Shown: in pieces, positions 450 through 27,264 of the stretch | Numbering within the stretch: the stretch's first letter is position 1 | Layout: every line of letters begins with the position of its first letter | Virus record (IMG/VR): IMGVR_UViG_3300033145_001808 | Location: 1 to 42,613 of that record | Length of the DNA: 42,613 nucleotides | From: a virus | Reading direction: 5' to 3' (one strand) | The notes under the pieces: model-generated | What the model was told of the DNA's origin: nothing | Seen by the model: the letters and a program-made list of their open reading frames with translations, nothing else | Database searches by the model: none | Made by a program: the position numbers and the translations under genes

Positions 450-689
450 TTAATTATCCCTGCTACAGGATGAGCTATTTCTCTTTTTGTAAGTTATAGG
501 CTGTTTTAACCAAGGATATCTTTTCTTAATTTTATTTATAGCTTGAGTTTTGCGATTGAATCTCTCAACATCTGGAAGAATAACTTCTTCTTCTATGAAT
601 TGCAGTATGTCCCTTAAAGCATTCACTATTTCTATGTTTACCATTTTTATAAGTTCCTGAAGTTCAACGCCTGCACCATCATTACTCAC
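450..689 (-). CDS. Small hypothetical protein after the endolysin
   Basis: A 79-residue product is expected from a GTG start at 689, which overlaps the endolysin stop and has AGGA six bases upstream. A TTG 30 bases earlier leaves the frame open further but has no ribosome binding site. The protein is predicted mostly helical in its first half (ELQELIKMVNIEIVN, LRDILQFIEEEV) and lysine-rich later (INKIKKRYPWLKQP). It has no membrane segment and no recognised family. Its position after the lysis enzyme suggests an accessory lysis role or the start of another module; this is inference only. Confidence 0.6.
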   Translation of the reverse strand: MSNDGAGVELQELIKMVNIEIVNALRDILQFIEEEVILPDVERFNRKTQAINKIKKRYPWLKQPITYKKRNSSSCSRDN

Positions 690-1143
690 TTTTAGTCCTA
701 TAAAATTTGTGATTGCCAATTTGCTTTATAAATTCCATACTTTTAGCCCAATGGGGTTCAATATCTGCCCTACAATAGTGAGTTGCACCATTAGTGGGAT
801 CTTCAGCATCATTATTTAATACCAACTTTGCTGCCTCAAAACACTCTTGCCATCTGTTAAAACTATCCCAGAGGAGAGGATTCCTCATTTTATTGCGATT
901 AGCATCACCAGCATTAAAAGCTGAGAATTGTTTATATTTAAGAATAACTTCTCGGTAGTTATTTCCATACCACTTGGCTCTGTTGACCCGATTTTGGATT
1001 ACCCAACCTATAGCTAGTTTTCCCAAAAATGGCTCTCCCCGGCCCTCTCCCCATATGCAAGTAGCTACAAGTAGGATTACTGGCCACTTGAAAAAGAGAA
1101 ATGGAACAGCCACGGGAGTGGGGATATATATAATCTTATCCAT
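682..1143 (-). CDS. SleB-type cell wall hydrolase (endolysin)
   Basis: The 153-residue protein matches the Hydrolase_2 (SleB/CwlJ) family, which cleaves peptidoglycan. Residues 30-55 carry the family motif IWGEGRGEP...AIGWVIQNRV with the probable catalytic Glu33. The family's C-terminal signature is present as DPTNGATHY, then PHWAKSMEF and IGNHKFYR. A hydrophobic stretch at residues 8-30 (VAVPFLFFKWPVILLVATCI) could be a signal anchor or a signal-arrest-release helix, so export without a classical holin is possible. It follows a holin candidate and is the probable lysis enzyme. A usable AAAGG motif precedes the ATG. Confidence 0.88.
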   Translation of the reverse strand: MDKIIYIPTPVAVPFLFFKWPVILLVATCIWGEGRGEPFLGKLAIGWVIQNRVNRAKWYGNNYREVILKYKQFSAFNAGDANRNKMRNPLLWDSFNRWQECFEAAKLVLNNDAEDPTNGATHYCRADIEPHWAKSMEFIKQIGNHKFYRTKSE

Positions 1144-2423: not shown

Positions 2424-2918
2424 TCACCCTCCTTTTAGGCTTTTTAGATAGTGTCTCGATAGCTCAAAAGCCGGGGGAGAGAATTTCTCCATTTCTTTTA
2501 GCTTCTGAGCCAGCCTTTTGATGATGTTTATTGACTCTGTCAATGAAAGAGTCCCTCTGACCACGTTGTCGATGGATATCACTGTGCTAGTAATATCGGG
2601 ACGCTTGCCGTAAACTTTATTCCAGTTAAAGGCTAGGAGTCCAAACTCTATTCCCAGATCCTTCAGTATGGGTTTCATCGGCTGATTGATAGTAATAGAT
2701 AAAAGCATATTCAGAGCTTCTTTGACAGTAGACTTCTCTTTTCCTGTTGCCTCTTTATCGAACTTTTCTGAAGTTAATTGTTTTTTCATTAACTCAAAAG
2801 CACATTTTATTACATTTTGTCCATCTTTCGATAGAATCGTGTTAAGGTCTTGGTGTCCTAAGATATACTCCAATTTCTTTGTGTTCCTCTCAAAAGCCTT
2901 TTTATCTTCTTCTTTCAT
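2424..2918 (-). CDS. Hypothetical helical protein after the radical SAM genes
   Basis: 164 residues, soluble and helical by eye, with no recognised domain. The charged N-terminus (KKAFERNTKKLEYILGHQD) and the segment TESINIIKRLAQKLKEMEKF suggest coiled-coil or partner binding. The ATG overlaps the stop of the SPASM-type radical SAM gene (ATGA) and has GGAG upstream, so the two are translationally coupled. It may be a partner of the radical SAM module or of the following membrane protein. Confidence 0.7.
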   Translation of the reverse strand: MKEEDKKAFERNTKKLEYILGHQDLNTILSKDGQNVIKCAFELMKKQLTSEKFDKEATGKEKSTVKEALNMLLSITINQPMKPILKDLGIEFGLLAFNWNKVYGKRPDITSTVISIDNVVRGTLSLTESINIIKRLAQKLKEMEKFSPPAFELSRHYLKSLKGG

Positions 2919-4234
2919 TTCAACTCCTTCTCTACAAGTCTTAAAGAGGCTTGTTTATTTGGATTAAGTCTGTCAAAAATTGTCTCATAAACCCCTAACT
3001 TTTTATATACTTTTATCATTGATGCTATTTTAGCGTGTTCTAATTTACACACTGTAGGTATGGGACTAAATAAATCCCCCGTAATCTCATACATACTTCC
3101 CAGGCATTGTCCCTGACAAAGATACTTAATCATACAAACCTCACATTGAGGCTGAGTCTTAAAATCAAAGGCTATCTCTCCAATAGCTAATTCAGGATTT
3201 TTTGCCTCTATACCTACAATCTTATCATCTTTAACTACAAATTTTCCTAAAATAAACTGGCTGTAAGATTGCCTATGGCAAGGGACAATTGCTAGATCAC
3301 CTAATCTTACATAAAGACAGGATTGGAGAGAGCAGCCCAAACCCCTGCCGATTGAAGTTAGGCAGTTACTAAGAATATTGTAACCTCTACGCCTGAACAA
3401 AAAATCAAGATAATTACCAACGACTCCTTTACACGGGACTTCGAAAGTCCACTTAATGAGAAACTTTATAAAGTCCATATAATCTCGTATTTGCTTATCT
3501 GTCCACTCCACATTGCGGACTTCAAGAAGATAAATATTGCTAAATGGTATATCAAACTCTGTGAATTTACTCTGAAACCACAAAAAGTTATCAGTCCACT
3601 TTTCGATAAGATCGGAATATACCATCGGATGAAAGCCAAAGCGGTACCTTCTGTTGAATCTAAAGCACTTATCATAGTATTTATCGTCCCTTCTTTCCTT
3701 GGCTTTCTTGAAAGGTCTATTCGCCTCGCAGAATTTACCATCAAAGGAAGCTGAGAGTAAAATGGGGATACCTACATTTCTCGAGTCCCTCAAGAGTTGC
3801 TCTACTTTTTCCGTCAGCCTGTCGCTGAGAATGAACGTGTAGTTAGTCGGAATGAGAATATTCTTAGGCTTCCTCTCGGTATTAGAGAACTTGTCTAATA
3901 TCAGTTTCAAGGCATCAAAACCCACTTTTTGAGAGAAAGGCTCACCAGAGAAGAAGTCTATATCTGGTGCATATCCCTTTACAATAAGCCAGTCCAAAAG
4001 CATCTCCAAATTATGGAGAATATCTTTGGGCCTGCTTATTTTTCTCGAATAGAGTTCCTCGCCAAACCTAGCTATATAACAGTATTTACAATTGAGATTG
4101 CAACGTGAATTGAGAATGAATTCTATCCTTCTGAAATTCTCATAACGTTTATCATCTTTGTTTGTCCAACCCTTGAAAAAAGTGTGTTCTAAAAAAGAAT
4201 TAAACAAAGCATTATTTTCTTGTTGATGATTCAT
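2915..4234 (-). CDS. Radical SAM protein with SPASM-like C-terminal cysteine cluster
   Basis: The start is ATG 4234, with GGAGAG upstream; longer readings lack a site and overlap the previous gene. In the 439-residue product Cys45, Cys49 and Cys52 (CNLNCKYC) form the CxxxCxxC motif that binds the radical SAM 4Fe-4S cluster. FFSGEP follows as the usual GGEP-like SAM-binding motif, then LSASFDGKF. The C-terminus is cysteine-rich: CSLQSC, a single Cys before HRQ, then CEVCMIKYLCQGQC, as in SPASM auxiliary-cluster domains of peptide-modifying enzymes (anSME, PqqE, sactisynthases). It overlaps a second radical SAM gene and lies two genes after tetrapeptide-repeat proteins, which are its probable substrates. 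Confidence 0.9.
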   Translation of the reverse strand: MNHQQENNALFNSFLEHTFFKGWTNKDDKRYENFRRIEFILNSRCNLNCKYCYIARFGEELYSRKISRPKDILHNLEMLLDWLIVKGYAPDIDFFSGEPFSQKVGFDALKLILDKFSNTERKPKNILIPTNYTFILSDRLTEKVEQLLRDSRNVGIPILLSASFDGKFCEANRPFKKAKERRDDKYYDKCFRFNRRYRFGFHPMVYSDLIEKWTDNFLWFQSKFTEFDIPFSNIYLLEVRNVEWTDKQIRDYMDFIKFLIKWTFEVPCKGVVGNYLDFLFRRRGYNILSNCLTSIGRGLGCSLQSCLYVRLGDLAIVPCHRQSYSQFILGKFVVKDDKIVGIEAKNPELAIGEIAFDFKTQPQCEVCMIKYLCQGQCLGSMYEITGDLFSPIPTVCKLEHAKIASMIKVYKKLGVYETIFDRLNPNKQASLRLVEKELK

Positions 4235-5546
4235 CTTCTCTCCGCCGCAAAAGTTCTTCAAAAGCACCATTGCTGAATAATCGTAGAAGTGACACTGGTG
4301 TAAAGTGAATACATCCAATATTAAGTAAATTTTCTGCGGGACAAGAGAGAGCAGTATTAACGAATACCGCAAATAGAGTTGCCAGTTTCTCATCCAGATA
4401 GCACTTAGAAGCCTGTCCTGCTAAGACCAACTCTTTAAGCATTGCCACAACATAGCTTATTTTTAATCGCCAGAAGTCGTGGTAATTTCGCATTACATAA
4501 AAGAATCTTGTCTTCTCTTTTTCATCAGAAGTATCCACGATGAATCTATCTTTAATAAAATTAATTCTATCTCTTTGAAACAAGGAGACATCCCAGTTAT
4601 CTATGCCTTCCTGGGACAAGATGCTCTCGATATATTCAGGGTGATTGAAAAAGAAAGAGCGGTGGCAAATATGTATATCGCCTTTAATCCCAGCTCCTAA
4701 GTTGCTGTCTCCTCCTGAGCAGGTGAACATTGAAGACTTAGAAGATAAATCATTCTGATACTTAAACAGTCTGTCTAACCTAAACGAATAAGTATTAGGA
4801 TATTTCATTTCTCTTAGCTTCTTAAAAAACCCAGTAAGTTCTTTCCCGTCTTCGCTAGAGTATTTTCCTGGCACGCATAGGCTCGGAGCACAGGAATTAA
4901 CAAATTTTATTTTTTTATTTTTATTTAGACGCTTGAATTCTTCTTCTATATCATCGAAATAATCAAAATATTCTTTTATCCTTTTAGGCTCAAAATTAAG
5001 AAGTCTGATATTACTCATTGTTAGTGTGGATTTCATACGAAATTCTATCTCTACACAATCCAGTTCTAATTTATTTAAGCTCTTTATAATGTCGAAAAAG
5101 TTAGTGGGTATCCTCTTTGCTGCACCTTTTACCCTATTTACATCAGTAATGAAAGCTGGCCCATCTAGGGAGATTTGAGGCTTGAACTTAATTTTTCTAT
5201 TCCCTAACAGCGTCTCCAACCTTGCTACGAACTCAACAATTATTCGGGGGTTAGTCATCAAATTCGTAGAGAAAGAGATCTCCTTCAATTTTGGGAATCT
5301 GCCCAGCAAGTCAAAGAGCGGAATTTTATCTAAAGTTAATATAGGTTCAGTTCCCCAAAGCCCAAAGTATTCCAAATTCTTGCCATAAATCTTTTCCAAA
5401 TCATCAAGCCAGAATTTATTTTCTAACTTCTTTACAATTTCTTTCTGCAGGAATTTCATCAAAGAGGTCTTAGGAATGTAACAATATTTACATTTCAGAT
5501 TGCAACTCGCCGATGAAAATTGTTCCGCTGCTGTTAATCTATTCAT
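4212..5546 (-). CDS. Radical SAM protein (first of a tandem pair)
   Basis: 444 residues. The cluster motif CNLKCKYC lies almost at the N-terminus (Cys15, Cys19, Cys22). GLWGTEP at 62-68 takes the place of the GGEP motif, and ISLDGP at 125-130 is another typical radical SAM strand. Further cysteines occur in CAPSLC and in a CSGGDSN...HICHRSFF segment near residues 290-315, which could hold an auxiliary cluster. It is too diverged from its neighbour to be a recent duplicate. The ATG lies in a threefold AATAGATG/T tandem repeat with no clear ribosome binding site, 12 bases after the repeat-protein stop, so translational coupling is likely. Confidence 0.88.
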   Translation of the reverse strand: MNRLTAAEQFSSASCNLKCKYCYIPKTSLMKFLQKEIVKKLENKFWLDDLEKIYGKNLEYFGLWGTEPILTLDKIPLFDLLGRFPKLKEISFSTNLMTNPRIIVEFVARLETLLGNRKIKFKPQISLDGPAFITDVNRVKGAAKRIPTNFFDIIKSLNKLELDCVEIEFRMKSTLTMSNIRLLNFEPKRIKEYFDYFDDIEEEFKRLNKNKKIKFVNSCAPSLCVPGKYSSEDGKELTGFFKKLREMKYPNTYSFRLDRLFKYQNDLSSKSSMFTCSGGDSNLGAGIKGDIHICHRSFFFNHPEYIESILSQEGIDNWDVSLFQRDRINFIKDRFIVDTSDEKEKTRFFYVMRNYHDFWRLKISYVVAMLKELVLAGQASKCYLDEKLATLFAVFVNTALSCPAENLLNIGCIHFTPVSLLRLFSNGAFEELLRRREDESSTRK

Positions 5547-5557
5547 CTATTCATCTA

Positions 5558-5920
5558 TTAAACTGGAGCTTTGGCATCAGCATAGTGTGTGTATAAGACC
5601 CCACTATTATGGTTAGTGTTATCATCAAGATAATAAACCGAATTGACCCCTTCATCATGATCCGTGCGATCTGTTGACTTATAGCCAGTATCTACTCCTG
5701 TATTAACATCATTATTATAGGATGAATGCTGGTCATTATAGTGGGTTGCATTATATCCATCATCAACAACGGTATTCTGAGCAGCATTGTAAGAAACTTT
5801 GTCAGCTCCGCAGGCTTCATCATCTTTGATAGAATCGAGATTGCTTCTTATTTCTTCTATTACTGCTTTCGTAATAAATGCTGCTCCTTTCTGTATATCC
5901 TCTGTCCATTCAAACGACAT
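5558..5920 (-). CDS. Tetrapeptide-repeat protein A, candidate radical SAM substrate
   Basis: 120 residues. Residues 1-34 form a leader-like module starting MSFEWT and containing IEEIRSNLDSI. From residue 42 to 117 the sequence reads in 19 consecutive tetrads, for example TGVD, TGYK, STDR, TDHD. Positions 1-2 are mostly small or polar, position 3 is Y (5), V (5) or H (4), and position 4 is N (8), D (3) or K/R (3). A YTHY tetrad lies near the end. It shares both leader and repeat pattern with the next gene and sits directly before two radical SAM genes. I infer a modified fibre-like or RiPP-like substrate. GGGAG precedes the ATG. Confidence 0.8.
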   Translation of the reverse strand: MSFEWTEDIQKGAAFITKAVIEEIRSNLDSIKDDEACGADKVSYNAAQNTVVDDGYNATHYNDQHSSYNNDVNTGVDTGYKSTDRTDHDEGVNSVYYLDDNTNHNSGVLYTHYADAKAPV

Positions 5921-5937
5921 TTTCGCTCCCTATTTCA

Positions 5938-6405
5938 CTAATTTCCCACATAGTGAGTGTACCAGTAAGTTCCATAATAATCATTTTGAACACCTGTATT
6001 GACTGGCCCACAAGCCGAACCCTTATGAGCTGAATCCACACTAGAATTATGTGTTGATTTCACATCTGAATCATAATTGCTATCTACTCCAGCCTTATAG
6101 CCTGAATCATAGCCTGTATTTTGTCCTGTATAAACAGATGCATCTGCATCAGCATTATCTGCTCCGTCATGGTCCGTGTTGTGAGAGTGGCAGTAGTTCA
6201 TGTCGTCTGCATAATCAATCTTAGTCCTTATATCCTGATAGTCTGCAGTTTCTTCAAGGTCTTCTACATTGACTGGAAGTTCCGTCCAAGAGGGAGGATC
6301 CAATGCAAGATCAGAATATACAGTTTCGACATTGGTCTGAATCTCATCTATGATGTCATCAAGCGTTATATCTCCGACTATAATGGATGTCCAACTAAAA
6401 CCCAT
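5938..6405 (-). CDS. Tetrapeptide-repeat protein B, paralogue of A
   Basis: 155 residues. Two successive WT-type modules (MGFSWT...IIDEIQTNVETV, then SWTELP...YQDIRTKIDY) resemble the N-terminal module of protein A and short modules seen in phage fibre proteins. Residues 77-152 are 19 tetrads such as TGYD, SGYK, AGVD, SNYD, ending YTHY then VGN. Position 3 is Y (5), V (6) or H (4); position 4 is D (6), N (4) or K (3). One tetrad carries a Cys (GSAC) and one a Trp (GTYW). It lies between the fibre gene and protein A with an AGGTGA site, so it is probably made with the tail genes. Confidence 0.8.
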   Translation of the reverse strand: MGFSWTSIIVGDITLDDIIDEIQTNVETVYSDLALDPPSWTELPVNVEDLEETADYQDIRTKIDYADDMNYCHSHNTDHDGADNADADASVYTGQNTGYDSGYKAGVDSNYDSDVKSTHNSSVDSAHKGSACGPVNTGVQNDYYGTYWYTHYVGN

Positions 6406-6411
6406 ATTTTC

Positions 6412-7497
6412 TCACCTAATCGTAATAAGAGCTTCAATCCTCTTTTTTTCGCCTGGCAAAAGATTCTCAAAAGCCTTGGCTACAGTCGCCTCCAAAGGAT
6501 TACCTCTCATCGCTGTCCCTTTAAAATTGCTCGTCATCATCAAATCACCTACTGAAACTGGCCCCACAGCTTTGACTTTCACCCTGCCCGCAATTGCCAC
6601 GGGGGTAAAGCCTGCCTCAATGGCTTCCTCAATAGATTTATAGTTATCTCCTCCTAGACAGAATCCAAAAGTATCCGAGTGAACTCCTATTACTCTCTTA
6701 TCGTTTGCAAATGAGGATCTCTTCACCTTCCCTTCATCCCAAATTAGTACATCTCCAGGCTGCGTTTTTTCCGAGCAAGGCGTAAGTTCGGCAAGGTCAT
6801 TATAGACTGCTCTCCAGACCTTAGCATTGTCATCAATAATCGTGTAAGTATTGTCATCGGCAGCTATCTTCTTGACTAGCTTGCCCTTGGCCGTCTGGAT
6901 TTCCCCCGAGAGAACTGGAGCATCTGTGTGGCCTTCGGCTATTGCGGTAAAGTTAGCCTGGTTGGCATTCATTTTCTCGGAGGTCAAAAGTGAATTCTCA
7001 GCGTAACTCAGGGCAGTCCAGGTTGCCCTCACGAACTTAGGGCCCAATTCCTTAGCCAGAGCAAGATAACAATTCGGACAAACGACAGGCATAGTTCCTG
7101 CTCCCAGAGTCGAGAGTGAGGGCAAGTTAATCCAGCCAGGATAACCGACCCCGAATATTTTTTCTTTTTGGGAAACTCCACATCGGGTGCATCTAACTAC
7201 TCTGGGCTCCTTCACGGTAATTTTTTTGCCGATTCTAGTTAAACATTTGGGACAAACTTCAGGAGCTTTTCCTTGAAGATCAAAAGCCAGAGGCAAAATG
7301 GCCCAGCCAAAGAAGGCTACCCCTGAGGACTCCTCGACTTTATGCTTCCCGCAAAATGCACAGTCCACAGATCTTTTGGGCTTAATATATTTGCCTTTCT
7401 CTTTCACCAAGTTCCAGACTGGCTTGCCGCCCTTAAGGCAAAACTTAACTCCTCTTTCCTCCCATTTCTCTACAATTAATCTCTCAATTACAGTCAT
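6412..7497 (-). CDS. Tail fibre protein with zinc ribbons and G2-type C-terminal domain
   Basis: 361 residues. The N-terminal half has four CxxC pairs (CAFC, CPKC, CTRC, CPNC), forming two probable zinc ribbons at about residues 46-90 and 105-150. WTALSYAENSLLTSEKMNANQ at about 178-198 is a short module common in phage fibre proteins. The C-terminus (GDVLIWDEG, RVIGVHSDTFG, VAIAGRVKVKAVG, VGDLMMTSNFKGTAMRG) resembles the peptidase G2-like or intramolecular-chaperone domain at the end of fibres and spikes. It probably contributes to host recognition. A strong TTAGGAG site precedes ATG 7497. Zinc ribbons in a fibre are unusual. Confidence 0.7.
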   Translation of the reverse strand: MTVIERLIVEKWEERGVKFCLKGGKPVWNLVKEKGKYIKPKRSVDCAFCGKHKVEESSGVAFFGWAILPLAFDLQGKAPEVCPKCLTRIGKKITVKEPRVVRCTRCGVSQKEKIFGVGYPGWINLPSLSTLGAGTMPVVCPNCYLALAKELGPKFVRATWTALSYAENSLLTSEKMNANQANFTAIAEGHTDAPVLSGEIQTAKGKLVKKIAADDNTYTIIDDNAKVWRAVYNDLAELTPCSEKTQPGDVLIWDEGKVKRSSFANDKRVIGVHSDTFGFCLGGDNYKSIEEAIEAGFTPVAIAGRVKVKAVGPVSVGDLMMTSNFKGTAMRGNPLEATVAKAFENLLPGEKKRIEALITIR

Positions 7498-7508
7498 TTA
7501 ATCATCTC

Positions 7509-7724
7509 CTAAGCAGCTAGGTTTGCCATAGCCTGCCAAGTGCCTGGTTCCCCTGCTACCACGCACACCCATCCGGGAGGCCCGCCTGCTGAAGGCTCTA
7601 TATTCCAAACCACGTCACCCCTCGCCCACGTCCCGGTAACAGGGGCAGCAGTGCCGTAAGCAGTGGGGAATTTCTTATGGTGAACGTTGGGATCTTTTAC
7701 ATGTGATTCTCCGTCAAATGGCAT
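7509..7724 (-). CDS. Small tail fibre-associated module
   Basis: 71 residues. The C-terminal part (TGTWARGDVVWN, then SAGGPPGWVCVVAGEPGTW) has the beta-rich, glycine- and tryptophan-rich look of modules at the ends of phage fibres or of small virion proteins beside them. It lies between the baseplate protein and the fibre protein with its own AGGAG site. It is probably a minor virion component; specific function unknown. Confidence 0.65.
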   Translation of the reverse strand: MPFDGESHVKDPNVHHKKFPTAYGTAAPVTGTWARGDVVWNIEPSAGGPPGWVCVVAGEPGTWQAMANLAA

Positions 7725-7734
7725 TTTTCAGCTC

Positions 7735-10107
7735 CTACAAAATTGGATTATAATCTTGGTCTAAAATTCCCCAATAAGGGTCATCCAAAACAAACGCCGC
7801 AATCTGCTCGTCGCTAATATCCCTGCAAACAAAGCAAACCAAACCCTGGGCTATATCAATATTCTGAATATCTATAATCCTGGCATAGACAGCCCCCCAA
7901 TCCTTCAAAGCCTCCTCGACTAGAATCGTGTCTCCTAAACTCAGGAAAATACCACATAAAGTTGAGGTTATGGTCAATAGAGTTAGGGGTTGCTTGTTTT
8001 TGTCGACTGTCCTGTCGGCATACTCCGTCGCACTGTCAAGGTCTGCGTGCCAAACGGTTTTGTCCTCCTCTACGTCGGAAAAGGTCCCGAAGTCCGTTTT
8101 ACTGGCTTCATCCTCCGCCAGATAACTACCCGCCCATTCATCAATATCAGGATTATATCCGTATCTACATCGAAAATGGTTAATCAGATTTTCCTTGGTT
8201 ATTGAGGCGTCTATCTCCAGACAATTGCTTCTGTTATACCTCGGCAAAATGCCAGGGGTGAAGGGAGGAATAGGTCTTTTAAACTTAAATTTCCCCTCTC
8301 CCCCAATCCAGATGTAGCTGTTCGTTAGATTAGCAATCATCAAAAGAGCGTTAGTAATATAGTGACCAGTGAATCTTGCCTGCAGGGAATATTTCAATGT
8401 ATCGCAATCAGTCTTATAGCTATTCCAGCTTGTATAATCAATGTCTGTGTTATCTGTGCTTGCCGTATCATCCAGCCCGCCGTGAGTCGTGAGGAGATCC
8501 CAGGCCAGGTCTGCGGGATTCTGCGGCGTTAAATACTCAACAGGATTCTCACCATTGCCGAGCTTTTTCTTCAGGGTGCTTACCATTTTATCTCGGACTT
8601 TTAGGATAGCTTCTGCCTCGGCATAGGAGACATCTTCAACTTTGCCTGTGAATAGTGCTTTTTCGTTGCTAACACCGTGCTCAGCAGCAAGCTTTATTCC
8701 AATTTGAGAGATATTGCCAATCTCCGTTCTGTCAGCCAAAAATAGATTCCAAATCTGGCTGATGTTAGAAAGAGTGGCAGTACCCGCTCCTGAGGTTAAA
8801 TCAGCCGACCTTGTTATAGTAGACACATCATTTAAGTAGCTGGTATAATCTACGCCTTTATATTTCAGCCAGATAGTAGCTTTCACAAGCTGTTTGGAAA
8901 GCCTTGCCTCGAATGAAGCATCATCGAGGAGCATATCAGTCACATCTTCCAATAGCCCCAAGGATTCCTCTAAAGTCAAAGCTCTATCAAGGGTAGGGAG
9001 GGACTCTAATAAGCCTAAAGACTCAGTAAGAAGAGCGCTAATAGCGACTGTCTCATCTTCTTTTAAGGCTAGGCTTTCCTCTAAGACTAAGCCTCTATCT
9101 AGGCTAGGCAGGCTTTCCAGTAGGGCTAAATTTTCTTCTAAAGGTTCTAGGGCTCTAGTTAAACTAGGCAGACTTTCCAGCAAGCCTAGAGATTCTGTCA
9201 AAGCTACAGCAGAATCGGCAAACATATTGTCTATATAAAAGGTATTATCACTGTCGGCATTGACGATAGTGACAATAATCCTATCAATTGCGTCCTTATT
9301 AGTAGTAGCTATTCCTGATAGCTCTACTACCTGCCAAGCATTTGCCGATGTGATGTTAGGAGTGACTTCCGATGTCACCCCGCCTGAATCCCTGAAACCG
9401 ATTTTGATATTACTCCCTGTTCGGGAAGCTCTTATGTAAAATCTAATAAAAGGTTGCCCTGTTAAATCTATAGTCGGTGAGACTGTGCGAGTGAGGGTGT
9501 CGTTGAGGGAATCAGTTGCTTTGGCAAACCCTTTTAGGGAATAAGAGCCTTGTTGTTTGATAGTGGATTCGGAGTAGCATTGAAGGTTAATTTCCATCAT
9601 CTCCATTTCAGTAATAACAACCTTTTGTGCAGTGTCATCAGGAGTGGAGTGCGTTACATATATTCTATAGTAACGATAAGCCGTAGAGTTTGAAAATGTA
9701 AAAGATTTTATTTCATCATTAGGACTCCAAGAAATACCCGATTGTGTATCTAAAACATCCCAATCGATATCATTATTTGAGCCCTCAAAAGTCCAAGCAG
9801 TAGGGTGATGGGTTGCTACATCTATGGCAGATTGAAACCTATATTTTGATACAATTTTCTCATTTCCGGCCCCTAAGTCATATTTCAGCCAGATAGGATT
9901 ATTGCCTGCCCATTCTCCCCGCCATCTATCATTTGGATTAACAGTATCCCAAACATCGTCGAAAGCCCCTGAAGCTGGCTCATTTTCCTGATTCGCTGAA
10001 GCTGTTCCGCCCGTGCATATATCACTTCCATAATCATCACTATTCACATAAGCCGCCTGAGCATCGGCATCCGTTGAATATTCACAGTAATCAAGTTCTA
10101 CTGGCAT
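7735..10107 (-). CDS. Baseplate/tail protein with carbohydrate-binding domains and a Leu-Glu repeat linker
   Basis: 790 residues in four parts. Residues about 50-180 look like a discoidin/CBM32-type sandwich (IWLKYDLGAG, WTFEGSNNDIDWDVLD, YRYYRIYV). Residues about 180-300 look like a second carbohydrate-binding sandwich (FIRFYIRAS, WQVVELSG, FYIDNMF). Residues about 305-395 are repeats of the type ESLGLLESLPSL. The remaining 390 residues resemble a tail hub or baseplate protein (ATIWLKYKGVDYTSYL, LFTGKVEDVSY, AEYADRTV-like segments). It would join tail tip to host glycans. The order, binding domains before hub domain, is uncommon. A clear AAGGAG site precedes ATG 10107. Confidence 0.75.
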   Translation of the reverse strand: MPVELDYCEYSTDADAQAAYVNSDDYGSDICTGGTASANQENEPASGAFDDVWDTVNPNDRWRGEWAGNNPIWLKYDLGAGNEKIVSKYRFQSAIDVATHHPTAWTFEGSNNDIDWDVLDTQSGISWSPNDEIKSFTFSNSTAYRYYRIYVTHSTPDDTAQKVVITEMEMMEINLQCYSESTIKQQGSYSLKGFAKATDSLNDTLTRTVSPTIDLTGQPFIRFYIRASRTGSNIKIGFRDSGGVTSEVTPNITSANAWQVVELSGIATTNKDAIDRIIVTIVNADSDNTFYIDNMFADSAVALTESLGLLESLPSLTRALEPLEENLALLESLPSLDRGLVLEESLALKEDETVAISALLTESLGLLESLPTLDRALTLEESLGLLEDVTDMLLDDASFEARLSKQLVKATIWLKYKGVDYTSYLNDVSTITRSADLTSGAGTATLSNISQIWNLFLADRTEIGNISQIGIKLAAEHGVSNEKALFTGKVEDVSYAEAEAILKVRDKMVSTLKKKLGNGENPVEYLTPQNPADLAWDLLTTHGGLDDTASTDNTDIDYTSWNSYKTDCDTLKYSLQARFTGHYITNALLMIANLTNSYIWIGGEGKFKFKRPIPPFTPGILPRYNRSNCLEIDASITKENLINHFRCRYGYNPDIDEWAGSYLAEDEASKTDFGTFSDVEEDKTVWHADLDSATEYADRTVDKNKQPLTLLTITSTLCGIFLSLGDTILVEEALKDWGAVYARIIDIQNIDIAQGLVCFVCRDISDEQIAAFVLDDPYWGILDQDYNPIL
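8940..9212 (-). repeat. In-frame repeats encoding ESLGLLESLPSL units
   Basis: Within the baseplate gene, near-identical DNA units of roughly 20 codons recur. They encode variants of ESLGLLESLPSL followed by a basic residue and RAL or RGL, then LEE. At least three full copies and two shorter ones are visible. The units would form an amphipathic helical linker between the glycan-binding domains and the hub. Copy number could change by recombination, altering linker length. Confidence 0.75.
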
Positions 10108-11256: not shown

Positions 11257-11619
11257 CTATTTCTCCCTCAAAATTAGTGTGCCGTAGTATTTATCCTGCC
11301 ATTCCATTGTCATCATCTGGAGGGGTTGAGTTTCGTTAATTATAACTACGGTAACGTAGCTGCTGGGATTATTTTCGTAATCGTAATAGTATTTAAGTTC
11401 CGTCATGTCCTGCCACCACTCATTAAACTGGTCGGCGTCGGTCTTTTCAATAGCTATAACAGGCACTTCATCCCGCCTTTTATTACCCCATTCATACACA
11501 TATAAAGAGCCATCGAGGGTTTTATGAGTAGTCCGCCTTCGGCTCTCTGGGACTTCGTATCCTTCTATGGGGTCGAAATCAACATCTGTCACCCCGTCAC
11601 TTAGCCGCATTTTAGCCAT
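11257..11619 (-). CDS. Small distal tail component
   Basis: 120 residues, beta-rich: MRLSDGVTDVDFDP, SLYVYEWGNKRRDEVPVIAIE, YYYDYENNPSSYVTVVIINE and a C-terminal YYGTLILREK. The position directly after the tape measure gene and the pattern of a tail-tube-related fold suggest a distal tail or tail-tip adaptor. The ATG overlaps the tape measure stop (TAATG), so translation is coupled. Confidence 0.65.
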   Translation of the reverse strand: MAKMRLSDGVTDVDFDPIEGYEVPESRRRTTHKTLDGSLYVYEWGNKRRDEVPVIAIEKTDADQFNEWWQDMTELKYYYDYENNPSSYVTVVIINETQPLQMMTMEWQDKYYGTLILREK

Positions 11620-14600
11620 TATTTCGCCTTCCTAACTCCCACAAGATCCCTGGAGAATATACCCATTCGCACTGATTCCTTGATGGCTGGGACAAATTTC
11701 TTCTGGAAGACCCTCTCTATTTTCTCTTGCGTTAGGGTTTCAAGGTCAACATTGGGGAATTCTGCTGTGATATTTATAGGACCAACATTCTGTTCTATTT
11801 TTGCCCCGCTTTCTCCTCGTCCCGCTCTCCATTCCCTCGCCTGAGAAGCAGTAAGAATTGCTTCTTTGGGGTGGACGATGACGGGCATGGTCCGGGGGAT
11901 GTAGGGGATGCCGATTTGGGCACGGGGGATGCTACCCTCTGTTCCATAACGTCCGATAATGTTAAAATAGCGGTTGCCTATGTCAGGGATGTTGGGCATA
12001 TGCAGGTTGCCGATTACGTCGAAGTCAACACGGCGAGGAATGTCCTCTATCGCTCTCTTGAGCGTATAGACTTCTGCTGTGAGATTCTCTGTTGCAGTTG
12101 ATGCTTGATTTGCCCACCAAAGCCAATCCCAAGGCCATTTCCACCCGCCTCCTAATTCATCTTTAACTTTCTTTACCGATTCATAGAACTCCTTGAAAGC
12201 TGGAATTATTTTTTCTGTTATTAATTCCCAAAGTCGCTTCATTGATTCCCAAGCTGCTAAGAAGGCAGCAATCAACAAGGCAATTTTGCCGAGGAGAACC
12301 ACTAGGGAAGTAGTTAAGCCTGCCACTGCTTTTGTAAGACTCTGAACAAATGTTATGATACCCGTGGCAATCCAAGCTAAAGTAGCTACTACAGCTTCCC
12401 AGATTTTGGCTATCAATTTTATTAGGGCAGGAATACCTTGTTCCCAGATTGCCTTTGCGAAACCTATAACCCATTCCGAGAGCTTCTGGGCTATAAGGTT
12501 GGCGATCGCAGCGGTGACGCTTTCGTTGATTACCCGGCCTAGCTCCTGGAATGCTTCTTTGGCGGTAATCGTCTTCTGGAGCCAGTCCTCGACCACTGAG
12601 GCAAAGCTGGATTTGAGAGACGAACAGAAGTCTTTCCAAGCAGTCTCTAATCTCTCAACTGCGTTTTCTCCAGCCTTTGCTAAACCTTCTAACTCTTCGA
12701 TAATAGCTTCAATTTGCTCTATAGTCAGATTTCCCCAGTCAATTGTTTGTTTTTTGTAGTCTTCATAGTATTTTTTTTGATCTTTTGTAAGAGAATCTAG
12801 GAGCTTCTTTCTTATTTTTTCCTCTTCGATAGCTGCCTTTTTATAATAGAGTACCTTAGCCGCTGCAATTCTTTTTGTGCTTGCTTTCTCTTCCTTTAAT
12901 AGAGCTTCTTGTTGTTTCCAACCTCTATCCAGTATTTGCTGTTTTGTATGGGTAGCATTGAACTCTATATCTTCTATCTCATTTTTGATTTTTTGTGTTA
13001 GCTTCTTTTCTTTATCCAAGGTCGCTTTAATAATTTCAAGCTCTTCTTTTTTCTTTTTCTTTCTATATGCAGTTTCCCAATCGGCAATTTGCTTGTTACT
13101 CCAGCCCGCTTTTTTATATGCTTTTTTCCTTGCCTCTATTTCTATCTCTAATAACTTAGTCTCATTTCCAAAAAGCGATGCCATTTCTTTCTGGTAATCA
13201 ACTTGAGCTTTTCCGATTTTATCATAGTAATCTTTGTAGAGATTGAATTTGGCTTTTGTAAGTATCTCAGTGAGATTTATTTCCTCACCAGCGAGCTTAG
13301 CCGTTGCTTCTATCCTAACTTTCTCGGCTTCCCAACGTTTATCCAGCTGCTCCTTCTCAGTATGAGTCAGCCTAAAGTACTCATTCTCGATTTTTTTAAT
13401 AGCCTCTTTGCTAGCTTCTACAACTCCCTCCCAGTATTCCTTGTATGCCTTTTTTAATTTCTCAACTTCTTCTTTAGTAAATTTTGTAAAATCTACAATT
13501 TGGCCTTCACGCTCTTCGTACCATTTTTTCTCTGCCTCTGTAAGTTCAAGATACGCACGTTTAGCAGGCTTAGTATCTACAGGAGGTATAATGGGAGGTA
13601 TGGGAGGTGGCTCAATCGGAGCTATGACCGGTGGCGGTATAACTGTCTCTGCCGCAGCAACTCCTATTGCCGTGAGCTTTTTCTCCAGAATTCCTTTGGC
13701 CTCATCCAGATTAACTCCTATAAGTTTTGGAATTTCTGTAACCGTGGCCTCAAATCCCTCAAGAAGGGGAGTCCAATCAGGAGCCTCAATCTCCTTCAGC
13801 CAGTTCTTGGGATTCAATTTCTTCCCAATATAAATAGCCCATTTCCCAATATTTCCCCCTAGGTTCTTGAGAATTCTACCAGCGGCACTAGCGACATCCC
13901 TAAAAACATTAGGAAACTCAACGCTGAACCAGCCGAGGAAGTTGCCAATATTCGCCCCAACCGCCTTAAAGACTCCTGCGACAACTTTTCCGAAGAACTC
14001 AAGATAAGCACCAGTTTTCTGAACACCCTTTCGGAATGTTTCGTTTTTTTTGTAGAAATATACGAACGCCACCGTAGCAGCTGCAATTGCTCCTGTAATC
14101 AGTCCAATGGGGCCTAACATAATATGAAAAGCTGCTCCTACTGCAGGCGCTATAGCAACTAAACCAGGTAAAATCATTAACAAACCACCCAGAGCTATCA
14201 AAAGGGGCCCAAGAACTGCCGCAAATTTGATTAATATTGAAGTGAGCTTGGGGTGCTCTTTTGACCACTCTGACATTGCCTTCACAATATCAGTAACTTT
14301 TTTAATCAGGGGAACTATCATTGGTAAAAGTCTATCGCCTATTTCCTGAGCTAAAACTTCTATTTGTATTTTTGCCTGTTGGAAAGCAAATCCAGCTTTA
14401 TTTATTCCTTCTGTTTGCTCCTTAAATGCTACATCAGTAAGACCTATTGAATCTCTCATTTTAGCAAGTTTTTCGGTATATACATCAGACTGTGCTCCAG
14501 TTAAAGCTAATGCTAATGTTTGACCTTCTATTTGGGAGATATATTTTTGTAATGGTATTCCTGATTTTTCAGCTGCTTCAGTAACAATCTTAAGTGCTCC

Positions 14601-15419
14601 GCTTAATCCCTTTTCTTTAAGCATAGCCTCTCCGCTCTTATACCCCATATCTGCTATAAGTTCAGCCATATCCTTAGTCGGGGCCATCAAAGATTGGAAT
14701 ATTCCTCTTAACTGTGTTGATACTTCAGCTGCTTTACCAGTAACTCCTGTCGCTGTTGCCATTACAGCAAATAATTCTTCCTCTTCCACTCCCAATTTGG
14801 CAGCTAATGGAATTGCTTTCCCAATACTTGCAGCGAGTTCGGGGAATGCAGTCTGTCCTAATGTAACTGTCTGAAAAGCGAGATCGCTGGCCTTTTTAAC
14901 AGCTTCTTTAGATGTATCACCGTATCCCTTTGTAACAGCAGATAAAAGGTTAATTGCCTCTGTGGTAGTTGCCACACCTGCTGTAGCTGCCTTAGCTGAC
15001 ATTTTAAGAATATCAACTGTGTCGGCAGTATCACCAAAAGCGGATATAACTTGATATGCGCCTTGGGCCAAGTCCGCCGTGTCCTTTCCAACCTCCACAG
15101 CCATCGTCCTGATTGCTCCTTTGAGCTCGTTTACCCGCTCGGTGCTACGTGGGATCAGGGTAGCTATATTGGCTATTTCCTTGTTAAAATCAATTGATGA
15201 CTTTATCGCTAGGCCCAATGCTGCCGTGATAGCTCCGCCAGCAGCAGCCATGCCTATACCTACTTTTCTGAAAGTGGGAGCTAAAGCCTGGAATTTAGCC
15301 TGCATCTTATTAACAGACTTTTCAGTTAGCACTCTAGCTGACTTCAATTCAGACTCGAACTTGGCCATTTTGGCATGAAGTTCAACATAGGCTTCGCCAA
15401 TTTTACTTCCCACTGCCAT
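11619..15419 (-). CDS. Tail tape measure protein (TP901 type)
   Basis: 1266 residues. The first 350 residues match the TP901 tape-measure core: SSIDFNKEIANIATLIPRST, TMAVEVGKDTADLAQGAYQV, AAKAATAGVATTTEAINLL and GVTGKAAEVSTQLRGIFQSL. Hydrophobic segments follow at about 395-455 (FAAVLGPLLIALGGLLMILP and further). A long lysine/glutamate-rich coiled coil lies at about 640-900, more hydrophobic segments at about 960-1060, and a small C-terminal domain ends the protein. By the usual rule of about 0.15 nm per residue the tail would be near 190 nm. A good GGAGAG site precedes ATG 15419. Confidence 0.95.
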   Translation of the reverse strand: MAVGSKIGEAYVELHAKMAKFESELKSARVLTEKSVNKMQAKFQALAPTFRKVGIGMAAAGGAITAALGLAIKSSIDFNKEIANIATLIPRSTERVNELKGAIRTMAVEVGKDTADLAQGAYQVISAFGDTADTVDILKMSAKAATAGVATTTEAINLLSAVTKGYGDTSKEAVKKASDLAFQTVTLGQTAFPELAASIGKAIPLAAKLGVEEEELFAVMATATGVTGKAAEVSTQLRGIFQSLMAPTKDMAELIADMGYKSGEAMLKEKGLSGALKIVTEAAEKSGIPLQKYISQIEGQTLALALTGAQSDVYTEKLAKMRDSIGLTDVAFKEQTEGINKAGFAFQQAKIQIEVLAQEIGDRLLPMIVPLIKKVTDIVKAMSEWSKEHPKLTSILIKFAAVLGPLLIALGGLLMILPGLVAIAPAVGAAFHIMLGPIGLITGAIAAATVAFVYFYKKNETFRKGVQKTGAYLEFFGKVVAGVFKAVGANIGNFLGWFSVEFPNVFRDVASAAGRILKNLGGNIGKWAIYIGKKLNPKNWLKEIEAPDWTPLLEGFEATVTEIPKLIGVNLDEAKGILEKKLTAIGVAAAETVIPPPVIAPIEPPPIPPIIPPVDTKPAKRAYLELTEAEKKWYEEREGQIVDFTKFTKEEVEKLKKAYKEYWEGVVEASKEAIKKIENEYFRLTHTEKEQLDKRWEAEKVRIEATAKLAGEEINLTEILTKAKFNLYKDYYDKIGKAQVDYQKEMASLFGNETKLLEIEIEARKKAYKKAGWSNKQIADWETAYRKKKKKEELEIIKATLDKEKKLTQKIKNEIEDIEFNATHTKQQILDRGWKQQEALLKEEKASTKRIAAAKVLYYKKAAIEEEKIRKKLLDSLTKDQKKYYEDYKKQTIDWGNLTIEQIEAIIEELEGLAKAGENAVERLETAWKDFCSSLKSSFASVVEDWLQKTITAKEAFQELGRVINESVTAAIANLIAQKLSEWVIGFAKAIWEQGIPALIKLIAKIWEAVVATLAWIATGIITFVQSLTKAVAGLTTSLVVLLGKIALLIAAFLAAWESMKRLWELITEKIIPAFKEFYESVKKVKDELGGGWKWPWDWLWWANQASTATENLTAEVYTLKRAIEDIPRRVDFDVIGNLHMPNIPDIGNRYFNIIGRYGTEGSIPRAQIGIPYIPRTMPVIVHPKEAILTASQAREWRAGRGESGAKIEQNVGPINITAEFPNVDLETLTQEKIERVFQKKFVPAIKESVRMGIFSRDLVGVRKAK

Positions 15420-17488: not shown

Positions 17489-18868
17489 TTATCCCTTCTG
17501 AAAAACTATCATTCCCGGAAATTTAGGAAAATCTATCCTATCCATTCCTAAGTAGTCAGAAAGCTCCTCCACCATTCGGCTAACTCCTGGATGACTCCTA
17601 TGATTAGTATCATGGAAAACAATCAATCCTTTGTTCTTAACATAGGGATAAAAATTGTTAAAATCATCCTTTACCGAAGGGTAATTATGATCTCCATCGA
17701 TAAAAAGAATATCAATTTTTTCTTTCCAGTCCTTAGCTAAATCCTGGGATTTTTTCTGGATAAATTCTAATTGGGGATGGATAAAATCTTGCCATCTCTT
17801 TAGGGGATCACAGCTTATCAATCTCCCCCTCGTTTTTTCTAGCCCATATAGAAACGCCTTACTGGAATTAAGCAGACCAGTTCCTATTTCCAGAACCAAT
17901 TGTGCATCTTGGGCGATGACAAGCCCTGCCAGCAAAGCCACGAACGGCTGCATGTCAGTAAAATTCATGTCGAATCTGCCGTCGCCAATCAAGATGTCCA
18001 TGTCTATTGGGGTCATTCTTCCCTTGTGAGCCTCCATTACTCTTTTCCGATAATTTATATTAGCCGGACATTTCCCCCAACCTTTCGCGTAGTATTCATC
18101 AATCAAAGAGAACTCTTCCTCATGATAATCCAACTTGTCGAAAAAGAGGGTGGAGACGCAATACATCTGCCATTTATTATCTAGTAAATTTACCCAGCCA
18201 CCTCGCATCCATCTTTTTCCCGTCGTGGGCATCTTATCGAGTAACTCCCTAAGGCAGTTCAAATTAAAACCGGCCAGGGCAGTGCTGTGCTTTATGAACA
18301 TCGGAAGGTCTTGACTAGTCCCTCTTATTATTCCGACCCTCGGATCATACGTGAACTCTTTTGCCATAATCAGGTTCCAGTCCTTGGGATAAAGAACATC
18401 ATTTTCGCAATTAAACACAAGCTCGGTCTCGGCCAGCGAGGCAAACCGCATAAGTGATTTCTTTGCGTTCCCGAATTGTTCCCTGATAATTAATTTCTTA
18501 GGATTCTCGTAATTATCCAGAATCATTCTGGTCTCATCATCTGAATTGTCATCCATCACGAACAGTTTCCTCACTAGTCCCCAATCGGTGTTAATCTCAA
18601 GCGAATCTAAAGATTTCTTAGTCCATTCAGGCCTATTCCACACCTGAAAGCAGATATCATGTTTGGGAATTTGTCTCAGCCTTACTTGCCTGTCTATCCA
18701 TCTTGAGCACTGGATGGAGTTCCAATTCAAGGGGAAACATGTCAATAGAAATTCTGCTGTTTCCCTGTCTACTTTCCATTGTGATTTTTTTCTGGTATCA
18801 ATTCCAAAGCCGAAATAATATTCCAGCTCCGGGGTGGGATAAAAGCTGACTTCAATTTGTCTTGGCAA
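17489..18868 (-). CDS. Glycosyltransferase-methyltransferase fusion
   Basis: 459 residues. Residues about 1-46 are a small module (YYFGFGIDTRKK, ETAEFLL) also present at the C-terminus of the neighbouring glycosyltransferase. Residues about 65-300 look like a family 2 glycosyltransferase (ICFQVWNRPEWTKKSLDSL, LFVMDDNSDDET). Residues about 310-459 are a SAM-dependent methyltransferase of the Methyltransf_24 type (LVLEIGTGLLNSSKAFLYGL, DILFIDGDHNY, GLIVFHDTNHR). It may decorate virion proteins or host surface glycans. The start is TTG 18868 behind GGAGG. The pair interrupts the conserved neck-tail gene order. Confidence 0.8.
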   Translation of the reverse strand: MPRQIEVSFYPTPELEYYFGFGIDTRKKSQWKVDRETAEFLLTCFPLNWNSIQCSRWIDRQVRLRQIPKHDICFQVWNRPEWTKKSLDSLEINTDWGLVRKLFVMDDNSDDETRMILDNYENPKKLIIREQFGNAKKSLMRFASLAETELVFNCENDVLYPKDWNLIMAKEFTYDPRVGIIRGTSQDLPMFIKHSTALAGFNLNCLRELLDKMPTTGKRWMRGGWVNLLDNKWQMYCVSTLFFDKLDYHEEEFSLIDEYYAKGWGKCPANINYRKRVMEAHKGRMTPIDMDILIGDGRFDMNFTDMQPFVALLAGLVIAQDAQLVLEIGTGLLNSSKAFLYGLEKTRGRLISCDPLKRWQDFIHPQLEFIQKKSQDLAKDWKEKIDILFIDGDHNYPSVKDDFNNFYPYVKNKGLIVFHDTNHRSHPGVSRMVEELSDYLGMDRIDFPKFPGMIVFQKG

Positions 18869-18880
18869 ATTTTCCTCCTT

Positions 18881-19741
18881 TCATCTGAAATACCATCCCC
18901 ACCAGTAGATCGGGAATGCCGATAATAAAAACTCAGCCGTTTCTTTTGGCACTATCCAGTGAAGTTTCTTCCTAGTGTCAATCCCGAAGCCGAAGTAGAA
19001 ATAAAGCTCATTGCTAGGAACAAAGCGAAGTGAAACTTTATCTGGCAATTCCAGCTTTTTTGGCATCATACTTGGCATTATGTCAGGAAAGTTCAAAAAT
19101 TGTCTCATAATAAACAGCTTTCTCCCGGAGTCTTTTGTCGTAAGCCCCTCCTGACCTATCTTATCTCTTTCCCCGACTTTACCAGGTCGGTTGTGTGTTA
19201 TTTTTGCCTTTTCGCTGTGGGCATATTTACCCCATCTCTTGCTCCTCGTGGTTAGCTCACAGTCGCACCAGTAGTGGATATATCCTGGGAAGAAGATATT
19301 ATCATTAAGATATCTGTTCACATATTCCCTAGATATCAAACCGTGAGCGGCGAGGTGATCACCAAATTCGTCCCGAAAACTCACTAATCCCATCCCGTCA
19401 GGGAACGATTCATTGAAGGTTGACACCGCCTCGGTCAGCCAGTTGCGACTGACCTCTACGTCATCAGCGAGGAAGACTATCAGGGGGGAATCGGTCTTGT
19501 GATAGCCCTTATTGATTTTGCCGACATACATCTCTCGTTTTTCCTTAACCAGAATCTTTACATTCTCGTCCTTAATAAAAGGTAGCTTTTTAACAACCTC
19601 GACAGATTTAGGGTCATCCCTATCAGTAATCACAATTACATCAAAATTAGTGTAAACCGTATTTTCAAAGAGCTTAGTTAAGCATTTCGCCAACTTTTTA
19701 TAGCGCTGGCGAGTGGGAATAAGCACACTTACTTTTTCCAT
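18881..19741 (-). CDS. Family 2 glycosyltransferase
   Basis: 286 residues. The N-terminus has the GT2 nucleotide-sugar fold: VSVLIPTRQRYKKLAKCLTK, FDVIVITDRDDP and LIVFLADDVEVSRNWL with a DDV metal-binding motif. The C-terminal 50 residues repeat the module at the start of the next gene (YFGFGIDTRKK...ETAEFLLSAFP). The two genes are 12 bases apart, which suggests they arose by duplication or splitting of a larger ancestor. The ATG overlaps the gp10-like stop (TAATG). Confidence 0.85.
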   Translation of the reverse strand: MEKVSVLIPTRQRYKKLAKCLTKLFENTVYTNFDVIVITDRDDPKSVEVVKKLPFIKDENVKILVKEKREMYVGKINKGYHKTDSPLIVFLADDVEVSRNWLTEAVSTFNESFPDGMGLVSFRDEFGDHLAAHGLISREYVNRYLNDNIFFPGYIHYWCDCELTTRSKRWGKYAHSEKAKITHNRPGKVGERDKIGQEGLTTKDSGRKLFIMRQFLNFPDIMPSMMPKKLELPDKVSLRFVPSNELYFYFGFGIDTRKKLHWIVPKETAEFLLSAFPIYWWGWYFR

Positions 19742-26631: not shown

Positions 26632-27264
26632 ATGCCAATACAATTTAAATGTAAATTTTGCGGTAAAATATTTACAGATAGTCCTTCCAGTAAACGAAAA
26701 TATTGCTCTTATAAATGTTATAATTCTGACCACCCCAAAGGAGATAAAGCTGGCAACTGGAGGGGAGGTCAAAAAACTTTTATTTGTATTGTTTGTAGTA
26801 AACAATTCCAAAAACCTGCCTCTCGAAATGCCAAATTCTGTTCTCGTAAATGCTTTCATAAATATTTGGCTAATCGTCTTAAACAAAGAACGGGTTCTCG
26901 AAATCCACACTGGAAAGAAAGACCTATCCAAATTTGCGAATATTGCGGGGAACCTTTTGAAGCATTTTATAATAGAAAAACACAACGATTTTGCTCCTTC
27001 TCCTGTATGGGCAAAGCTCGACAAGGAAAAAACAATGCTCACTGGCGAGGTGGTTCTCCAGCCAGAGGTACATATGCTTATCAATATAGGCAATGGCGTA
27101 ATGCTGTTCTGAAACGTGATAATTACACTTGCCAAGCTTGTGGCTCTCATAATGACCTCCACGCTCATCATATTAAACTTTGGGCTAGTTATCCTAAATT
27201 ACGTTTCAAGGTCTCCAATGGACTTACCTTGTGCCGTCTCTGTCACTATGCCACGCCTCACTAA
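26632..27264 (+). CDS. Zinc-finger HNH homing endonuclease, plus strand
   Basis: 210 residues. Three CxxC...CxxxC zinc fingers at about residues 7-30, 50-75 and 100-128 (FKCKFCGKIF...YCSYKC; FICIVCSKQF...FCSRKC; ICEYCGEPF...FCSFSC) bind DNA. The HNH nuclease is at about 160-210 (LKRDNYTCQACG, LHAHHIKLWA, GLTLCRLCH). It is the only plus-strand gene and has its own promoter. Its 3' end overlaps the protease gene antisense by 66 bases. This is a typical free-standing homing gene inserted in a late operon. Confidence 0.9.
   Translation: MPIQFKCKFCGKIFTDSPSSKRKYCSYKCYNSDHPKGDKAGNWRGGQKTFICIVCSKQFQKPASRNAKFCSRKCFHKYLANRLKQRTGSRNPHWKERPIQICEYCGEPFEAFYNRKTQRFCSFSCMGKARQGKNNAHWRGGSPARGTYAYQYRQWRNAVLKRDNYTCQACGSHNDLHAHHIKLWASYPKLRFKVSNGLTLCRLCHYATPH

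Follow-up and report, generated by a model that had tools for sequence, protein, structure and literature searches.

A conserved phage cassette pairing two radical SAM enzymes with tetrapeptide-repeat proteins suggests chemical remodelling of tail fibres

Among the systems described so far, the nearest counterpart of the genes considered here appears to be the CXXX-repeat class, in which a radical S-adenosylmethionine (SAM) maturase with a SPASM domain is encoded beside a secreted bacterial protein made of tandem four-residue repeats (NCBIfam TIGR04114 for the repeat, TIGR04115 for the maturase and TIGR04117 for the target), and which is itself a bacterial prediction in NCBIfam. In the His-Xaa-Ser system (HxsA/B/C/D), also bacterial, two radical SAM enzymes accompany a repeat protein and a small extra gene, and the PapB ranthipeptide and GrrM/YhhB cyclophane maturases complete the set of relevant named enzymes. 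Radical SAM genes of other phages have been read as metabolic or iron-sulfur related (PMC2853527, PMC8541153, PMC5332604). Here we describe a cassette in the IMG/VR virus record IMGVR_UViG_3300033145_001808, whose entire 42.6-kb stretch (42,613 nucleotides) is referred to below as the window, in which two radical SAM genes (rSAM-A and rSAM-B), two tetrapeptide-repeat proteins (REP1 and REP2) and a further conserved protein (ACC) follow a fibre-like gene. The conservation of this gene set beside tail-fibre genes suggests that phages themselves modify a part of their fibres chemically, a practice apparently undescribed for any virus; in the open-access literature we found no description of this system and no link between radical SAM enzymes and phage fibres.

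The six genes form a minus-strand run between the tail genes and the lysis region: the fibre-like gene (6412..7497, 361 amino acids), REP2 (5938..6405, 155 amino acids), REP1 (5558..5920, 120 amino acids), rSAM-A (4212..5546, 444 amino acids), rSAM-B (2915..4234, 439 amino acids) and ACC (2424..2918, 164 amino acids). Gaps within the run measure 6 to 17 bp (6 bp between the fibre-like gene and REP2, 17 bp between REP2 and REP1, 11 bp between REP1 and rSAM-A), while 23 bp are shared by rSAM-A and rSAM-B and 4 bp by rSAM-B and ACC, a spacing like that of a translationally coupled operon. The start of rSAM-B at 4234 was chosen from the lengths of its homologues; the longest open reading frame (ORF) reaches 4393, and cysteine positions were shifted by -53 accordingly. 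An initial annotation of the window had drawn the two repeat and two enzyme genes, tightly packed, exactly where they lie, and had overlooked ACC, the fifth conserved member.

This arrangement recurs well beyond the window. IMG/VR and the GTDB genomes were scanned with profiles seeded by the enzymes alone; once duplicates had been removed, this yielded 47 viral or virus-like contigs (designated by L numbers). All 47 encode rSAM-B, 44 rSAM-A, 44 ACC, 40 at least one REP and 33 at least two; the three contigs devoid of rSAM-A appear truncated, and none of 281 distant ORFs passed the repeat score. Enzyme homologues and repeats thus form a phage unit in 40 of the 47 contigs found through the enzymes, and the complete lack of co-occurrence that had been named as fatal to the proposal is not observed. 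A profile of the REPs at large was too divergent for scanning the collections; a closer subset, the REP2 modules, was usable in the reverse direction and recovered three further contigs: the first stops just after the REPs, in the second a truncated SPASM-type ORF adjoins them, and the third encodes divergent A and B enzymes. Cassette carriers include phages that read TAG or TGA as sense (L033, L052, L054, L063, L084 and L056, L068, L081), with genes fragmented in table 11 and intact with TAG=Q or TGA=W. A bacterial origin was considered and rejected: the genome scan gave 10 matches, two of them being the same contigs as IMG/VR viruses and one prophage-like.

At the enzyme level, CxxxCxxC is present in both proteins, and both match Pfam Radical_SAM below its curated cut-off of 29.5 bits (26.4 and 25.5 bits, E 9e-6 and 2e-5). 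In rSAM-A the cluster cysteines C15, C19 and C22 and the auxiliary cysteines C276, C294 and C402 are invariant in 42/42 full-length homologues. The auxiliary pair C276-x17-C294, with its GX4C, is arranged as in twitch/SPASM domains; CX2CX5CX3C is absent and only three auxiliary cysteines are kept, which is a twitch-like layout. In rSAM-B the cluster motif C45/C49/C52 is kept in about 98% of 47 homologues, and the seven SPASM cysteines (C301, C319, C364-x2-C367-x5-C373-x3-C377 and C396) are invariant; the SPASM model TIGR04085 scores 26.0 bits against a cut-off of 27. The claim of two divergent radical SAM genes, one bearing a SPASM-like cluster, is therefore borne out, by the shared motif and sub-threshold Pfam matches on the one hand and by a complete seven-cysteine motif one bit short of the SPASM model on the other. 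Profile comparison identifies the two enzymes as diverged sisters across the radical SAM core and a C..CHR motif (probability 96.6), and their distances co-vary among contigs (Mantel r=0.86, equalled in 0/5000 permutations). Since the NCBIfam models nearest to both are mostly peptide maturases (PapB, GrrM/OscB, YhhB and SCIFF) and all score far under cut-off, rSAM-A and rSAM-B appear to represent as yet unnamed peptide-modifying subfamilies.

The repeat proteins have a two-part organization. An N-terminal WT module with the consensus FTWTEDISVGDIIEAADINEIRNNIDTIYDNL (W-T...E-I-R-x-N-x-D) is present twice in REP2 and once in REP1, and in each protein it is followed by about 20 tetrads with S/T/G/A at position 1, T/S/G at position 2, Y/D/V/H at position 3 and D/N/Y at position 4. 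In 69 repeat tails, autocorrelation maxima occur at all multiples of four up to 40 residues (z 19 at lag 4, 37 at lag 8 and 34 at lag 16). Position-3 residues of neighbouring tetrads are anti-correlated (z -7.1) and recur at 8 residues (z 6.4) and most strongly at 16 (z 10.5), a super-period that suggests a possible coil of four tetrads. The tetrapeptide repeats reported in the initial annotation are not a product of chance: when the window and its two closest relatives were left out of model training, the score of the window REPs was reached by 0/1000 shuffles of either protein, and their period-4 autocorrelation by 0/5000. Compared with L004, the modules are 61-72% identical and the tails 30-33%, the period and the residue classes being nonetheless kept; tail identity rises to 51% with L069, a closer relative. 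The paralogy proposed for REP1 and REP2 is unconvincing by plain BLAST (E 2e-5, within the repeat tail only), but a relation is found through the profile of their common N-terminal module.

The comparison with named systems places this cassette outside all of them. It shares with the CXXX class the logic of a maturase beside tandem tetrads, but the tetrads carry Y/V/H/D and then D/N/Y instead of cysteine, two enzymes and a new partner, ACC, are involved, and the setting is a viral tail-fibre locus instead of a secreted bacterial protein. In agreement with these differences, TIGR04114 finds no match in the window repeats, which have period 4 and few cysteines, and the cut-off of 350 of TIGR04115 is not reached by rSAM-A (16.2 bits, E 0.0057), nor is this model among the best 25 for rSAM-B; weak TIGR04115 matches occur in 3/11 members of each enzyme alignment. 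The His-Xaa-Ser system, offered in the initial annotation as a parallel, resembles the cassette in having two radical SAM enzymes, but membership is rejected: instead of the 3 of HXS the repeat period is 4, the super-periods being 8 and 16, HxsB (TIGR03978) gives rSAM-B 18.9 bits against a cut-off of 370, HxsC (TIGR03977) is absent among the matches listed for the enzymes, and no fibre link exists on the bacterial side. Of that earlier interpretation, the association of enzymes with repeats and the fibre context stand, the kinship with His-Xaa-Ser does not, and the CXXX class lies nearer. PapB and GrrM/YhhB are the best-scoring named relatives and share the SPASM layout of rSAM-B, and 11/11 members of each enzyme alignment match the PapB model, never above cut-off (NF047865, cut-off 340; 40.6 and 46.7 bits for the window's enzymes); unlike in PapB systems, no Cys-X3-Asp precursor is found here, the tetrads mostly lack cysteine and the proposed substrate is fibre-like.

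The connection with fibres comes mainly from relatives of the window REPs. A Laminin_G_3 lectin-type domain lies inside REP2 of L014 and L078 (E 8e-15 and 3e-16), one REP of L095 terminates in Gly_rich_2 (3e-15), and the C-terminal end of the L007 REP, SDIRLKKDIVYI, is similar to the beginning of a Peptidase_S74 chaperone, the remainder of which is encoded as the separate next ORF (1e-7). Where upstream genes were examined, they are tail-fibre-like. In the window, the gene directly upstream of REP2 has no Pfam match of its own and escapes the WT profile; it contains two zinc-ribbon-like CxxC pairs and, by eye, a WT-like stretch (TWTALSYAENSLLTSEKMNANQANF), and its C-terminus (VYNDLAE...SDTFGFCLGG) resembles, also by eye, a Peptidase_G2-type tail-fibre domain. 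A 353-amino-acid homologue occupies the same place in L004, and the equivalent gene of L012 matches Peptidase_G2 (2.8e-7). Fibre-type domains or chaperones of the kind that mark tail fibres and receptor-binding proteins are thus carried by or adjoin the REPs of relatives and are absent from the window REPs, so that the fibre link of the window rests on homology and position. The proposal of fibre-like substrates is in this way strengthened for the family and indirect for the window, whose REPs would be part of the virion.

ACC, characterized by NWN and W-PPAFELSxHYL motifs, is proposed to act as a partner or adaptor of the enzymes. Its predicted structure is all helix (predicted local distance difference test, pLDDT, 88.7), and a search among solved folds returned nothing with E below 0.001; it does not resemble the PqqD-like winged-helix recognition element (RRE) of RRE-dependent pathways for ribosomally synthesized and post-translationally modified peptides (RiPPs). 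The order A-ACC-REP-REP-B-ACC is found in four contigs, which may mean that rSAM-A and rSAM-B are each served by a separate ACC; the copy on the rSAM-A side of L018 is too diverged for the first model. Pantoate-ligase/cytidylyltransferase-like genes adjoin the cassette in this group (L008 3252-4127, 4.5e-7; L007 9841-10758, weak; L017 7048-7959, no match).

A cysteine counterpart was found in cultured jumbo phages. Salmonella phage SPN3US encodes two radical SAM proteins side by side (genes 0163 and 0164); upstream of them, three short ORFs combine a helix-like leader with a cysteine every four residues, in long runs in two and in a short one in the third. Two Erwinia phages, Machina and Wellington, and Cronobacter phage CR5 share this arrangement of N-terminal leader, CXXX tetrads and two radical SAM genes; with 32.4 bits, the repeat of CR5 exceeds the TIGR04114 cut-off of 20, and the best model of SPN3US 0163 is TIGR04115 (125.6 bits, cut-off 350). 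Like the window cassette, it lies directly downstream of fibre or baseplate genes; unlike it, its tetrads contain cysteine, the WT module and ACC were not detected in SPN3US, and its enzymes show no more than distant similarity (A-model 6e-12 and 1e-8). Mass spectrometry places the proteins gp168-170, encoded just upstream, in the virion, and they are named as baseplate or tail-fibre candidates (PMC5694885, PMC10052503). The three repeat ORFs (L099 9088-9480, 9491-9895 and 9911-10117) are unannotated, the annotated 0166 (9564-9899 in the locus) being in another frame, and published virion searches probably could not find them for this reason; in one such search cysteine carbamidomethylation was a fixed modification (PMC10052503). 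Other phage genes were set aside: the rSAM-B matches of Campylobacter CP220 and from the human gut in the phage collection are distant radical SAM proteins without tetrads, tetrads were not found in Pseudomonas pPa_SNUABM_DT01, which has six radical SAM genes, and Vibrio QD01 has one such gene and no tetrads.

Taken together, several findings make it fairly probable that this is a phage-borne RiPP-like maturation cassette that modifies fibre repeats: the unit is conserved, its enzymes retain the cysteines that bind the clusters, the repeats have periods of 4 and 16 residues, relatives have repeats fused to fibre or lectin domains, and tail-fibre genes lie alongside. According to this model, rSAM-A, with one auxiliary-cluster site, and rSAM-B, with a full SPASM domain, would recognise the WT modules of the REPs with the aid of ACC and then modify the four-residue repeats; the REPs would be the substrates and the WT modules a leader or a virion anchor, and the modified repeats would enter the virion and serve in the adsorption apparatus, as a tail fibre or baseplate appendage. 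Several observations weigh against it. Seven of the 47 contigs have no scored REP; some of these are truncated, but L020, L034, L063 and L068 show no obvious sign of it, and L034 has both enzyme genes within a prophage-like region that lacks repeats. Y, H, F, W or C occupies positions 3-4 in only 56% of tetrads, and non-cysteine tetrads have no strictly conserved residue, unlike most cross-linked RiPPs. AlphaFold gives the repeats no confident structure: in REP2 the modules are helical, with pLDDT mostly 61-81, and the tetrads stay near 30, so no fold is claimed for them, although such low confidence would be consistent with a need for modification without proving it. In L034, from a Peptococcaceae metagenome-assembled genome, the two enzymes (4734-9066) are divergent, ACC was not detected and copper-amine-oxidase-N-like secreted proteins are encoded alongside.

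The loose side-chain pattern leaves room for two reactions. A covalent link at tetrad positions 3/4 is our first guess, for which we judge the chances to be evenly balanced; iterative alpha-carbon epimerisation to D-residues, as by PoyD, which would produce a rigid repeat helix, is considered because the side chains at these positions are loosely conserved, and we rank it second, as rather unlikely. Regular spacing with little demand on side chains and the 16-residue super-period, suggestive of a regular coil, favour epimerisation, but no named epimerase is among the NCBIfam matches listed, and many PoyD-type epimerases lack SPASM domains, whereas cross-linking maturases commonly have a SPASM or twitch domain.

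The evidence also bears on readings in which fibres are not modified at all. Most REPs are small, their N-terminal module is leader-like and the enzymes are peptide-maturase-like, as would be expected if the repeats were the precursor of a secreted or intracellular RiPP (a toxin, a signal or a superinfection-exclusion factor) that lies beside tail genes by chance and never reaches the virion; the neighbourhoods read, however, contain no exporter, protease or immunity-like gene, no obvious signal peptide is present, and fibre domains are fused to REPs and tail-fibre-like genes adjoin them where neighbours were examined, which leaves this explanation rather improbable. It is also conceivable that the REPs are nothing more than fibre or adhesin repeats that stay unmodified and that the enzyme pair serves host metabolism, nucleotide or tRNA modification or another auxiliary metabolic role, given that other phages have radical SAM genes outside fibre loci and that published readings of such genes are metabolic (11 proteins in CP220, PMC2853527; six in pPa_SNUABM_DT01, PMC8541153). 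We see little likelihood in this, as the association of both enzymes with tetrads holds in both search directions, the closest models are peptide maturases, and the arrangement recurs with CXXX tetrads, for which NCBIfam has a matching repeat model whose name refers to radical SAM targets. Low-complexity repeats are easily over-read, but an artefact of composition and chance gene order can practically be dismissed in view of the two shuffle tests and of 47 contigs that include reassigned-stop phages.

The maturation of fibre repeats would matter beyond the window, given that phage radical SAM genes have so far been read as metabolic helpers and that here a two-enzyme unit accompanies fibre-like repeats in most of the 47 contigs. 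Should the repeats prove to be modified, RiPP-type chemistry would serve phages in building their own particles. This would open a new way to stabilise fibres or bind receptors and would be, to our knowledge, the first case of a virion component matured by radical SAM chemistry. The orphan CXXX class of radical SAM targets would then gain a testable and culturable model in the Salmonella, Cronobacter and Erwinia jumbo phages, and new peptide-maturase families are supplied with matched natural substrates. A broader proposal is that many phage lineages, reassigned-stop phages included, build a part of their adsorption apparatus from radical-SAM-modified tetrads, obtaining post-translationally a new fibre fold (a 16-residue coil) through two sister enzymes with their own partner, and that the cysteine and non-cysteine forms are two chemistries for one solution; we advance it tentatively, as a view that leans slightly towards the doubtful.

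With respect to the remainder of the window, a 260-amino-acid protein (1645-2427) that overlaps ACC by 4 bp has an N-terminal membrane segment and, by eye, a possible glycosidase-like barrel, with no significant family match. The lysis end of the interval is formed by a cell-wall hydrolase on the minus strand (682..1143; Hydrolase_2 E 8.9e-22; PHROG endolysin), and a tape-measure-like ORF (11619-15419) and terminase-like and portal-like ORFs are also encoded. Two glycosyltransferase family 2 genes (17489-18868 and 18881-19741), one with a fused methyltransferase domain, lie in the head-tail structural region, and zinc-finger-rich ORFs of HNH type that look like homing endonucleases (26632-27264 on the plus strand and 28599-29324 on the minus strand) are placed between structural genes.

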